Assembly: GCF_000022085.1 (NCBI RefSeq)
Contig: NC_011894.1
Location: forward strand, 1,638,501-1,702,500
Reading direction: 5' to 3'
From: Methylobacterium nodulans ORS 2060
GTDB taxonomy: Bacteria > Pseudomonadota > Alphaproteobacteria > Rhizobiales > Beijerinckiaceae
DNA: 64,000 nucleotides
This document shows positions 1,337 to 14,067 of this stretch, piece after piece. Within the stretch, counting starts at the first letter, position 1; each line of letters starts with the position of its first letter. A model generated the notes under the pieces. The model searched no databases, was not told where the DNA came from, and saw only the letters and a list, made by a program, of their open reading frames with translations. Made by a program: the position numbers and the translations under genes.

Positions 1337-2107
1337 TTGGCCGACCTTGACCCGGAGCAGAGCCACTTGCGATCCGATATCCGCGGCCCGATCCCCGATG
1401 ACGGGCCCCCCGGCGCGGTCCAGGCCGTCGCCGTCCACATGGCGGTGAACGCTGCCCTGGACGGGCGTCCGGACCTGCCGCCATTCCTGCGCGACCATCT
1501 GGGCACGCATCTGCGGGCCTGTTACGCCGCGCTGCTGGCCGAGCCGCAGCCGGCGCTGCTCATCGAACTCGTCGGCCGCCTTGAGGCCGCGCTGGCGGTC
1601 GTCCGCCCGGCCTTCTCCTTCCGCGACGAACTCCTGGCGACCCTGCCGTCGCTGCGGGCTTTCGCCCTGTCGCTGACCACCACCCTCTCCCAGGCCGACG
1701 ATCTGGTACAGGAGACGCTGCTGCGGGCCTGGCAGAACCAGCACCGCTTCGAGGCCGGCACGAACCTCAAGGCCTGGCTGTTCACGATCCTGCGCAATCA
1801 GTTCTACACGGTTGCGCGCAAGCGCCGCCGGGAGGTGGAGGATGTCGACGACGCGGCGGCGGGCCGGATGGTCGCCCTGCCGGACCAGGAGGACGGGATC
1901 GCGCTGCGCGAGGTCTGGGACCAGGTGGCGCGCCTGCCGCCGCTCCAGCGGGAGGCCCTGCTTCTCGTCGCGGTGCAGGGGCTGACCTACGAGGCCGCCG
2001 CCCGGCTGATGAACTGCCAAGTCGGCACGGTGAAGAGCCGGGTCAGCCGCGCCCGCACGGCGCTGGTGGAAGCCCTCGGCGGCGCCGGAGCCTGTTTCGA
2101 GAGGTGA
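1337..2107 (+). CDS. EcfG-like ECF sigma factor with N-terminal NepR-like segment
   Basis: This is an ECF sigma factor. Region 2 is at about residues 95-160 (DDLVQETLLRAWQNQHRF, then LKAWLFTILRN), and region 4 is at about 195-245 with a helix-turn-helix (LTYEAAARLMNCQVGTVKSR). The region-2 start FRDELLATLPSLRAFALSLT is typical of EcfG, the general-stress sigma factor. Unusually, residues about 48-87 (LRDHLGTHLRACYAALLAEP, then LVGRLEAAL) look like NepR, the small anti-sigma factor that binds EcfG. The start is unsure: TTG 1337 lies very close to the promoter, while in-frame ATG 1439 keeps the NepR-like part and is equally plausible; neither has a strong ribosome site. Neighbouring genes carry EcfG promoters. 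The sigma assignment is firm; the NepR match is by eye. Confidence 0.85.
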   Translation: MADLDPEQSHLRSDIRGPIPDDGPPGAVQAVAVHMAVNAALDGRPDLPPFLRDHLGTHLRACYAALLAEPQPALLIELVGRLEAALAVVRPAFSFRDELLATLPSLRAFALSLTTTLSQADDLVQETLLRAWQNQHRFEAGTNLKAWLFTILRNQFYTVARKRRREVEDVDDAAAGRMVALPDQEDGIALREVWDQVARLPPLQREALLLVAVQGLTYEAAARLMNCQVGTVKSRVSRARTALVEALGGAGACFER

Positions 2108-2530: not shown

Positions 2531-4237
2531 TCACGTCTCCACGGTCGCGCGACCGCCGGCCTCCCGGACGGCCTCCGCGACGCTCGACCGGAACCGCACC
2601 TGCGGCGGCCGAACGCCGTGGGTCAGCAGCACCCGCCGGATCGGCGGACGCGCGCCCGCGACGGTGACCGTCGCGCCCTGCCGGCCGGCCTTGCGGGCGA
2701 AGCCCTCGATCGTCGCGGCCGCCGTCGAGTCGAGCAGCGGCACCTCCGAAAGATCGATGACGTAAGCCTTCGGGCGCTCGCCGAGGCGGTCGAGGGCGGC
2801 ACCCACGGTCGCGGCGGCTCCGAAGAAGAAGGCGCCCGAGATCCGGTAGACGATCACGTTCGGGTCGCTGGCGAGGCGGGCATCGTAGGGCGTGCGATCG
2901 GCCGCCGCCGCATCGGCGGCATCCTCCGCGACGAGCGGCTGGCGGCGCTCCACGTCGACCGCCTGTGCCATGCGGTGCAGGAAGAGCAGCGCCCCGAGCC
3001 CGAACCCGACCAGGATGCCCTCCGTCAGGTCGCGGAACACCACGAGGAGGAAGGTTGCGAGCAGCACCAGGGCGTCGCCCCGCGAGGCGCGCAGCAGCGT
3101 GGCGAATTCGTGCTTCTCGGCCATGTTCCAGGCGACGACGGCCAGCACCGCCGCGAGCGCCGGCAGGGGGATGAAGCTCGCGAGCGGTGCCGCGACGAGC
3201 ATGAACACCAAAAGGAAGGCCGCGTGCAGCATGCCCGAGACCGGGCCGCGCGCCCCCGAGCGCACGTTGGTGGCAGTCCGCGCGATGGTACCGGTCACGC
3301 AGATGCCCCCGAACAGCGCCGAGGCGATGTTGGCGGCCCCCTGCGCCACCAGCTCGCAGTTGGAGCGATGCCGGCGCCCGGTCATCGAATCGGCCACCAC
3401 CGCCGAGAGCAGGCTCTCGATGCCGCCGAGGAGCGCGAAGGAGAGGGCGGCCGGCAGCACCTCCATCACCTTGGCCGGCGACAGGGCGGGAAGCTGCGGC
3501 GCCGGGAGATTCTGTGGAATGCCGCCGAAGCGGCTGCCAATGGTCTCCACCGGCAGGCCCGCCGCCCAAGCGAGCGCCGAGGCCGCCGCGACCGCGATCA
3601 GGAAGCCGGGCCAGTGCGGCCGGAACCGGCGCAGGACCAGGATGAGCCCGATCGCGAGCGCTGCGACGGCAAGCGCGGCCCCGTTGAGCGTCGGCAGGGC
3701 CAGGACCAGGGCCTCCAGCTTCGGGATCAAGGGCCCGGGCTCCTTGGCGGGGAGCGTCAGCCCCAGGAGGTCCTTGATCTGGCTCGCGAAGATGATGACG
3801 GCGATGCCGGCCGTGAACCCGACCGTGACCGGGTAGGGGATGTACTTGATGAAGGTGCCGAGCCGCAGGAAGCCGATGCCGAGGAGGATGATCCCCGACA
3901 GGATCGTGGCGAGAAGCAGCCCGTCGACGCCGTGCTGGTCGACGGTGGCGGCGACGAGCACGATGAAGGCCCCGGCCGGGCCGCCGATCTGGAACCGGCT
4001 GCCGCCGAGGGCCGACACGGTGAAGCCGCCGACGATGGCCGCATAGAGGCCCCGGTCGGGCGTGACCCCCGACGCGATGGCGATCGCCATGGAGAGCGGC
4101 AGCGCCACGATGGCGACCGTGAGGCCCGCCACGACGTCGGCCTTGAGGTCGGCGAGCCCGTAGCGCTCGCGCAGGATGGTCACGAGCTTCGGTGTGTAGA
4201 GGTCTGCGAAGCTGGGCGCGTGCCGCTCTGCGATCAT
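2531..4237 (-). CDS. SulP-family (SLC26) anion permease with STAS domain
   Basis: A 568-residue inner-membrane transporter. Residues about 1-430 hold the SulP membrane domain (GLADLKADVVAGLTVAIVAL, the typical first segment; FQIGGPAGAFIVLVAATVDQ; then several hydrophobic helices). Residues about 450-560 hold a cytoplasmic STAS domain (VIDLSEVPLLDSTAAATIEG). Family members carry sulfate, bicarbonate or dicarboxylates, and the substrate cannot be read from the sequence. The length is normal for the family. It stands alone, so the context does not reveal the substrate. Confidence 0.88.
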   Translation of the reverse strand: MIAERHAPSFADLYTPKLVTILRERYGLADLKADVVAGLTVAIVALPLSMAIAIASGVTPDRGLYAAIVGGFTVSALGGSRFQIGGPAGAFIVLVAATVDQHGVDGLLLATILSGIILLGIGFLRLGTFIKYIPYPVTVGFTAGIAVIIFASQIKDLLGLTLPAKEPGPLIPKLEALVLALPTLNGAALAVAALAIGLILVLRRFRPHWPGFLIAVAAASALAWAAGLPVETIGSRFGGIPQNLPAPQLPALSPAKVMEVLPAALSFALLGGIESLLSAVVADSMTGRRHRSNCELVAQGAANIASALFGGICVTGTIARTATNVRSGARGPVSGMLHAAFLLVFMLVAAPLASFIPLPALAAVLAVVAWNMAEKHEFATLLRASRGDALVLLATFLLVVFRDLTEGILVGFGLGALLFLHRMAQAVDVERRQPLVAEDAADAAAADRTPYDARLASDPNVIVYRISGAFFFGAAATVGAALDRLGERPKAYVIDLSEVPLLDSTAAATIEGFARKAGRQGATVTVAGARPPIRRVLLTHGVRPPQVRFRSSVAEAVREAGGRATVET

Positions 4238-12713: not shown

Positions 12714-13041
12714 GGAGCGGGGAGGGCGGCGCCCGGGCCTCCGGTCGGACACGGCGCGGGGCGTCGGACTGGTATTGCCAGACCACCCTTCCGTGCCGGT
12801 CCCCGCTGCCGAGCGCCGGCCGCACGCCGCGCGACCGCATGTCCACCAAGCAATTCTCCCGCTCCATTCAATAATCGTTGCTGCGCTGCAGCATAGATAT
12901 GAATGAATATCCAACATATGTCGGTTCGTGCGGCATGATGTGCAGATTTGCGTGTGGAGCGCGTAGCAGAAATCGCCTCGGTGCCCAGGAACAATCGCGT
13001 TTGTGCCTGGTTGGTCGCGGTACCCAAAGGGGGGGACGCCC
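12714..13041 (+). promoter_or_regulatory. AT-richer leader region of the RTX gene, with possible EcfG promoter
   Basis: No gene is visible. The stretch around 12865-12945 is clearly AT-richer than its surroundings. At 12988-13012 lies GGAAC, 16 bases, GGTT, one base from the EcfG consensus and 30 bp before the ATG at 13042, the same distance as in the exact promoters near 0.7 and 1.1 kb. This makes a stress promoter possible but not certain. Confidence 0.4.
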
Positions 13042-14067
13042 ATGGCTATTCTCATCGGTACCGCGGGACCTGATCAGATCATCGGAACGAACGATTCAGA
13101 TGTTATCGATGGTCTCGCCGGGGATGACATCCTGCTCGGTCTGCTCGGCAATGACCAGATCAACGGTGGGTCTGGCTTCGATCGTATTGATGGTCAGGCT
13201 GGTGATGACATTATTGATACGGGTGACGATACGGACTACGCCGCCGGCGGCCCGGGCAACGACATCATCTACGGCCGGGGCGGAAATGATCAGCTGATCG
13301 GCGAAGCCGACAACGACACAATCTACGGCAACGAGGGTGACGACTACGCTGCCGGCAATCCCGGCAACGACATCCTGTACGGGGGAGACGGCAACGACTT
13401 CTTCGTTGGCGAGGCAGGCTTCGACTATGTGAGCGGCGACAACGGCAACGATTTCGTCAAGGGGGGCGACGACGACGACACCGTGCTCGGCGGCACTGGC
13501 GACGATCTCGTCGAGGGCGATCTCGGCAACGACTTCCTCGACGGTGGTGCCGGACGGGATGTGCTCTATGGCGATGCGGGCAACGACCGCATCCTCGCGG
13601 GATTGGACGACGATCAAGCGCTCGGCGGGCTCGGTGACGACGTCCTGTTCGGGGAGTTCGGGAACGACTTCCTCCGCGGCGAGGACGGCAACGACTTCAT
13701 CGGCGCGGGGGCCGGCAACGATGATCTATCGGGCGGCGCCGGCAACGACGCGCTCTACGGCGAGGCGGGCAACGACCTGCTGTTTGGCAATGCCGGCAAC
13801 GACGAGCTCGTGGGCGGCACCGGCTCCGACACCTTCGGGTTCGGCCGCGGCGACGGCCAGGATCTCATCCGCGATTTCGTGACGGGCGGGCCTGAGCGGG
13901 ACGTGATCGCCTTCAACGGCGGCGTCTTCACGTCCTTCGCCGCCGTCCAGGCGGCGACCCAGCAGGTCGGCGCCGACGCGGTGATCTCTTACGGCGCGGG
14001 CGACACGATCCGGCTACAGAACGTCCAGGCGTCGAGCCTGACGGCGGCCAACTTCACCTTCAGCTAA
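13042..14067 (+). CDS. RTX calcium-binding repeat protein
   Basis: A 341-residue protein starting at ATG 13042. From about residue 10 to 265 it consists of roughly two dozen GGxGxDxxx nonapeptides (GGAGNDALYG, GNAGNDELVGG) that form a calcium-loaded beta-roll. The C-terminal 75 residues (TFGFGRGDGQDLIRDFVTGG, then DTIRLQNVQ and a final FTFS) are the usual type I secretion region. There is no catalytic domain, so it is probably a surface or matrix protein rather than a toxin. No type I exporter is present in the window. Confidence 0.88.
   Translation: MAILIGTAGPDQIIGTNDSDVIDGLAGDDILLGLLGNDQINGGSGFDRIDGQAGDDIIDTGDDTDYAAGGPGNDIIYGRGGNDQLIGEADNDTIYGNEGDDYAAGNPGNDILYGGDGNDFFVGEAGFDYVSGDNGNDFVKGGDDDDTVLGGTGDDLVEGDLGNDFLDGGAGRDVLYGDAGNDRILAGLDDDQALGGLGDDVLFGEFGNDFLRGEDGNDFIGAGAGNDDLSGGAGNDALYGEAGNDLLFGNAGNDELVGGTGSDTFGFGRGDGQDLIRDFVTGGPERDVIAFNGGVFTSFAAVQAATQQVGADAVISYGAGDTIRLQNVQASSLTAANFTFS

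Follow-up and report, generated by a model that had tools for sequence, protein, structure and literature searches.

An EcfG sigma factor gene of Methylobacterium nodulans with an N-terminal segment homologous to the anti-sigma factor NepR

The window, a stretch of 64,000 nucleotides from Methylobacterium nodulans ORS 2060, contains near its beginning an open frame on the plus strand (1337–2107) whose product has sigma regions 2 and 4. The database protein entry for the locus (P0001) starts at ATG 1439 and comprises 222 residues, which places the gene at 1439–2107(+); TTG 1337 is a possible alternative start, and the whole NepR-like part is contained in the product of either. The 222-residue protein begins with a segment resembling NepR, the small protein that normally keeps sigma factors of this kind inactive (1475–1594(+), residues 13–52), with helices predicted at residues 15–34 and from residue 39, joined by an EPQPAL turn. 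A short variable linker of about eight residues, delimited by column entropy and spanning 24 nucleotides (1595–1618(+)), leads from this segment to sigma region 2 (1619–1831(+); Pfam PF04542 over residues 68–131, with the invariant F61 of a 95-row alignment taken as its start), and sigma region 4 follows at 1907–2065(+) (Pfam PF08281, residues 157–209). Further along, on the minus strand, lies a gene for a transporter of the sulfate permease family whose C-terminal part is a STAS domain (2531–4237).

The part from residue 61 onward belongs to the EcfG group (ECF15) of ECF sigma factors. The frame matches PF04542 at 6e-16 and PF08281 at 4.6e-16, and the protein additionally matches the Pfam families PhyR_sigma2 (PF22029, 7.9e-13) and PhyR_sigma-like (1.5e-6). 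Regions 2 and 4 are closest to EcfG and to the sigma-like domain of PhyR, the protein groups with canonical EcfGs on our tree (see below), and the best solved relative of the sigma part is RpoE bound to NepR (5uxx_A, 3.6e-42). Its nearest named relatives belong to Methylobacterium. The 60 residues ahead of sigma region 2, with the NepR core at 13–52, correspond to the NepR-like extension of about 55 residues described for EcfG proteins of Methylobacteriaceae (PMC4814048).

A sequence-only reading of this DNA had described a sigma factor carrying a NepR-like segment ahead of region 2, on the strength of the stretches LRDHLGTHLRACYAALLAEP and LVGRLEAAL; both are present in the frame, and the described arrangement is real, as judged by the Pfam sigma regions and by comparison with separate NepRs. 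Against a profile built from 29 separate NepRs, the first 60 residues reach 32.9 bits (best of 2000 shuffles, 9.4), and the N-terminal parts of all 95 aligned proteins score at least 15.5 bits. This test is not fully independent, because 27 of the 29 NepRs had been selected by means of a model built on fused segments. Independently of that profile, a whole-genome Pfam search places two sister fusions of the same genome (L004 and L005) above the NepR cut-off. An hhalign comparison of 19 near segments, including that of the window, with the 29 separate NepRs gives 97% over 40 columns (E 1e-10, for a single comparison), and the database name of some relatives is "NepR family anti-sigma factor". 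The Pfam NepR model (PF18557) itself scores the first 99 residues at 19.0 bits (E 1.1e-3, residues 52–85 of the long frame) and the full chain at 16.9 bits, below the curated cut-off of 25.7 in both cases. We therefore call the window segment NepR-derived and not a member of the Pfam family. At E ≤ 0.01, the same model finds 69 of the 95 proteins in the alignment, among them that of the window, and misses 26. For the first 99 residues, NCBIfam holds no family, and a phmmer search against the PDB returned no match up to E 10; even the separate NepR encoded at L001 finds the PDB NepR chains weakly (7.6e-4, 0.58, and 0.9).

The segment retains the NepR signature L/I-G-x2-L-R-x2-Y, P-x-P, L-x3-L in the form of L21, G22, L25, Y29, P38, L44, and L48. 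L25 is kept in 29 of 29 separate NepRs and in 82 of 82 fused segments (those scoring above 20 bits), Y29 in 29 of 29 and 79 of 82, and P38 in 29 of 29 and 65 of 82. Two positions around the turn are mostly lost in the fusions: an acidic residue 39 is found in 26 of 29 separate NepRs versus 15 of 82 fused segments, and P36 in 27 of 29 versus 18 of 82. The window segment keeps both P36 and P38, and has A39 and L40 where separate NepRs carry D/E39 and R40 (the latter in 24 of 29). The proposal that the segment is a true NepR domain stands as to homology and signature positions, and falls short as to the Pfam cut-off and the altered turn. We regard the observation itself as confirmed: the window gene encodes an EcfG sigma factor in which residues 13–52 share homology with NepR.

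The segment is constrained, far less so than the sigma part. Among the 95 aligned proteins, which were picked for their likeness to the window protein, mean column entropy is 1.54 bits over the NepR core (residues 15–52), compared with 2.89 for the tail before it, 2.79 for the linker, 0.83 for sigma region 2, and 0.86 for region 4. Five core residues (L21, G22, L25, Y29, and L44) reach at least 90% conservation across 145 aligned proteins. The same gradient is seen against the nearest relatives, with 34 of 40 core, 139 of 151 sigma, and 6 of 12 N-terminal tail residues identical in P0003 and 32 of 40, 135 of 151, and 7 of 12 in P0002.

Two AlphaFold2 models, computed from the 95- and 145-row alignments, both show the segment as a two-helix hairpin, with block means of pLDDT over residues 11–50 of 71–83 in the first and 87–94 in the second. 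The pTM values (0.40 and 0.45) are low and leave the packing of the segment open. Neither model adopts the closed shape of NepR-bound sigma (rmsd to 5uxx_C, 23.6 and 22.7 Å), an outcome that we count, together with the low pTM, against the interpretation favored below. The structure-prediction check proposed in the sequence-only reading yields the hairpin and no NepR-bound form of the sigma domains, and we dropped the use of these models as proof of binding in cis, given their pTM values and the missing closed shape. NepR chains are absent among the best 50 matches listed per fold search, which is no evidence of a differing fold.

We also searched for EcfG-type promoter motifs around the gene with the pattern GGAAC-N15-18-SGTT, the leading G of which we take to belong to the promoter. 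The window contains seven matches (including one overlapping pair on opposite strands) versus 1.77 expected, and none of 100 shuffled windows reaches seven, the largest count being six. The spacer is 16 or 17 bases in all seven, the length found in the published EcfG promoter, GAAC-N16,17-C/GGTT (PMC4814048). Genome-wide, GGAAC-N16-17-SGTT occurs 214 times versus 183 for a reversed-pattern control, so that a single motif means little. Among the other loci of the genome, the phyR-nepR locus (L001), an expected positive control, has six matches, L007–L012 together have one, and L013 has none.

Four independent motifs fall within 2.7 kb around ecfG versus 0.066 expected; because this stretch was chosen after the cluster had been noticed, such probabilities are descriptive. 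Each of the four precedes a small gene whose product looks exported by eye. Three lie on the minus strand of the window: GGAAC-N16-CGTT at 1079–1103, before a divergent 85-residue gene (1049–792(-)); GGAAC-N16-CGTT at 675–699, with an overlapping match on the other strand, before a small gene at 645–199(-); and GGAAC-N17-CGTT at 2479–2504, before an 88-residue gene (2423–2157(-)). The fourth (L138, C7:1638294–1638319) lies 207–182 bases before the window, ahead of a plus-strand small gene that ends at window position 99 and whose start is a chosen ATG inside a longer frame. None of the four small proteins has a Pfam match. On the strand of ecfG itself, no motif occurs between the divergent promoter and the gene; likewise, the passages of PMC4814048 drawn on here report no EcfG-type promoter upstream of the ecfG genes of Methylobacterium extorquens AM1. 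Elsewhere in the window, a motif at 12988–13012(+) coincides with the start of a 354-residue Asp/Gly-rich repeat frame (13003–14067) whose product by eye resembles a calcium-binding repeat protein.

When searched against its own genome at 1e-15, the window protein matches ten places: seven EcfGs with the extension (L006–L012), one unfused (L013), and two distant ECF sigma factors. The Pfam NepR model exceeds its cut-off at five places, the window not among them, namely three separate small genes (L001, L002, and L003) and two longer frames, L004 (29 bits) and L005 (25.1 bits; 26.5 with neighbours in frame), which are NepR-EcfG fusions. L002, L004, and L005 are second copies of L013, L011, and L010. 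The genome encodes three separate nepRs alongside the seven NepR-EcfG fusions, and one of the three belongs to an unfused nepR-ecfG pair. At L001, nepR adjoins a PhyR gene with PhyR sigma-like and receiver domains. In the unfused pair (L002/L013), nepR (1405–1683 of L002; 39.5 bits, above the Pfam cut-off) and ecfG (1680–2225 of L002) overlap in different frames on one strand. This pair, which coexists with the fused EcfGs in one genome, has the same adjacent NepR and sigma modules as the window gene, and differs from it in consisting of two overlapping frames and in its place with the separate pairs on the sigma tree.

The window protein finds matches at 1e-20 in 37 of 41 genomes (its own, 24 of the genus, and 16 of the order) and at 1e-30 in 172 of 199 genomes of the family. 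Among the matches listed, the five at the order level all start at residue 56 or later. Outside the genus, eight of the fetched loci carry the fused label, all in six genomes of a single genus (g48), as does L075 (g52) with a weak score, and four with an early match start (L064, L065, L076, and L077) are separate pairs; Microvirga is among the database names of fused proteins. These loci were picked by choice among the matches listed, not randomly. In 80 of the 93 loci labelled fused, the NepR part and the sigma part are 24–36 nucleotides apart, which we count in favor of the interpretation below. Some genome-search matches contain internal stops, and we rejected their reading as split or read-through genes: in all seven loci followed to their ends, the TGA simply terminates the sigma gene. 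Two of the nine stop-containing loci fetched (L064 and L065) have nepR and ecfG as separate genes. In L065 (G075), the two share a frame, with one stop and one codon before the presumed ecfG ATG, and this locus would represent a state one stop codon short of fusion.

A tree of the sigma part alone was built by a quick method without bootstrap from 126 rows (93 labelled fused, 27 separate, and 6 none); 45 of its 120 inner branches are open. Of the 132 loci with a sigma match, which do not include L001, L003, and L048–L050, the second copies (L002, L004, and L005) and three distant ECFs (L014, L015, and L047) had been dropped. One set of 31 rows (support 92) unites the 27 separate loci, three with no label, and the fused L075 with the order-level relatives, and L075 sits with separate pairs in a starred set. 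The other 92 fused rows and three unclassified ones (L062, L066, and L090) lie outside it. By its sigma part alone, the window protein groups with fused EcfGs, in a starred set of 44 rows (43 fused and 1 unclassified). The label "fused" changes five times on the tree, four of these forced by starred branches, and 7 of the 93 such labels rest on scores of 2.6–13.0 bits (L075, L110, L115, L127, L129, L131, and L137). L013 and L078–L089, from twelve other genomes of the genus and picked because their match lacks the extension, group as a single starred clade of 13 loci, each of them preceded by a separate nepR; a fourteenth locus picked for its missing extension, L090, fell among fused rows. With the root assumed on the separate side, one fusion followed by duplication would explain all fused rows except L075, and other histories are possible.

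The NepR resemblance of such extensions has been noticed before, reportedly in a 2009 PNAS paper. The comparison with published Methylobacterium EcfGs suggested in the sequence-only reading leads to M. extorquens AM1, in which, according to a 2016 study that credits the first notice to an earlier paper, the EcfGs are extended at the N terminus by about 55 residues that resemble NepR (PMC4814048). The same source describes the extension as a feature of the Methylobacteriaceae that is absent in other Alphaproteobacteria, suggests an ancient fusion as its possible source, and states that its contribution was not known at the time. In the open-licence literature considered, we recognised no later work on it. 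EcfG1 to EcfG6 of AM1 share with the window gene the ECF sigma factor, the NepR-like N terminus, and the occurrence of several paralogues per genome (PMC4814048). The window gene differs as a further paralogue outside the presumed EcfG1 clade, set amid motif-bearing genes and with the turn EPQPALL. Canonical nepR-ecfG pairs of Alphaproteobacteria, such as RpoE-NepR of Bartonella quintana (5uxx), comprise the same two modules as separate proteins, whereas the window protein joins them in one chain through a linker of about eight residues.

We lean toward a reading in which the paralogues descend from an old nepR-ecfG fusion and the segment lies on its own sigma factor, shielding it against NepR in trans and tempering its activity. 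The seven EcfG paralogues, including the window gene, would go back to an ancient joining of neighbouring nepR and ecfG; the segment would, at least part of the time, occupy the site of free NepR on its own sigma domains; and this occupancy would keep NepR in trans off the sigma factor and temper its activity. The likeliest role of the segment would thus be that of a tethered NepR relic occluding NepR in trans. In the reported AM1 experiments, NepR bound in vitro to truncated EcfG1 only and not to the full-length protein, and in two-hybrid assays only to truncated EcfG1 and, weakly, truncated EcfG5 (PMC4814048). These binding results speak for the favored reading, as do the NepR homology, the conservation of the core relative to tail and linker, and the hairpin predicted in both models. 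By analogy, the window paralogue may act like EcfG1, with an intramolecular contact. No NepR interaction was detected for truncated EcfG2, 3, 4, and 6 (PMC4814048), and shielding therefore cannot explain every paralogue.

Alternatively, as the sequence-only reading proposed, the segment could be a true anti-sigma domain in cis; it would then be the chief restraint on its own sigma factor, released when phosphorylated PhyR binds the segment directly. Its NepR descent, the retention of most signature positions, and the presence of a PhyR gene beside nepR in this genome are in keeping with such a function. We nevertheless regard it as unlikely, as the NepR turn is altered in most fusions and in the window segment, the closed shape appears in neither AlphaFold model, and EcfG2 of AM1, which has the extension, seems constitutively active (PMC4814048).

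Somewhat less likely still is a decaying fusion relic that does not regulate the sigma factor and persists for the sake of folding or as an N-terminal handle. For the clade presumed to be EcfG1 (L009 and 15 other loci, so assigned from one copy per genome rather than by a match to the AM1 sequence), pN/pS is 0.55 for the segment versus 0.06 for the sigma part, as ratios of plain means over the 55 of 120 pairs with equal segment length. This greater tolerance of amino-acid change, which we also count against the favored reading, would suit a vestige, as would four loci that are barely NepR-like (L127, L129, L131, and L137, 2.6–6.8 bits) and three among the fused rows that give no NepR-segment match (the unclassified rows above). 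The segment ratio is still below 1, however, and the five core residues named above are held while tail and linker drift.

We consider it quite improbable that the segment, instead of acting on its own sigma domain, serves as a docking site, either bringing in PhyR or vying with free NepR for it. In AM1, two NepR homologues do co-precipitate PhyR with no sigma binding detected, but the extension changes EcfG1-NepR binding in the two-hybrid assay (PMC4814048). A complete partner switch in one protein, in which the NepR segment would inhibit its own sigma factor until phosphorylated PhyR binds the segment and the sigma factor activates the four neighbouring small-protein genes, is very improbable.

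Since the fusion has already been described in this bacterial family, the window gene mainly adds one more copy to a known arrangement. It extends the NepR extension of Methylobacteriaceae EcfGs, known but functionally unexplained, to a further paralogue. Besides this paralogue, what is new here is the unfused pair in 13 sampled genomes, together with the four motif-bearing small genes around the window gene, and we see the most useful additions in that pair and in this promoter cluster. With seven fusions beside three separate nepRs, of which one lies in an unfused pair, this single genome offers a testable setting.
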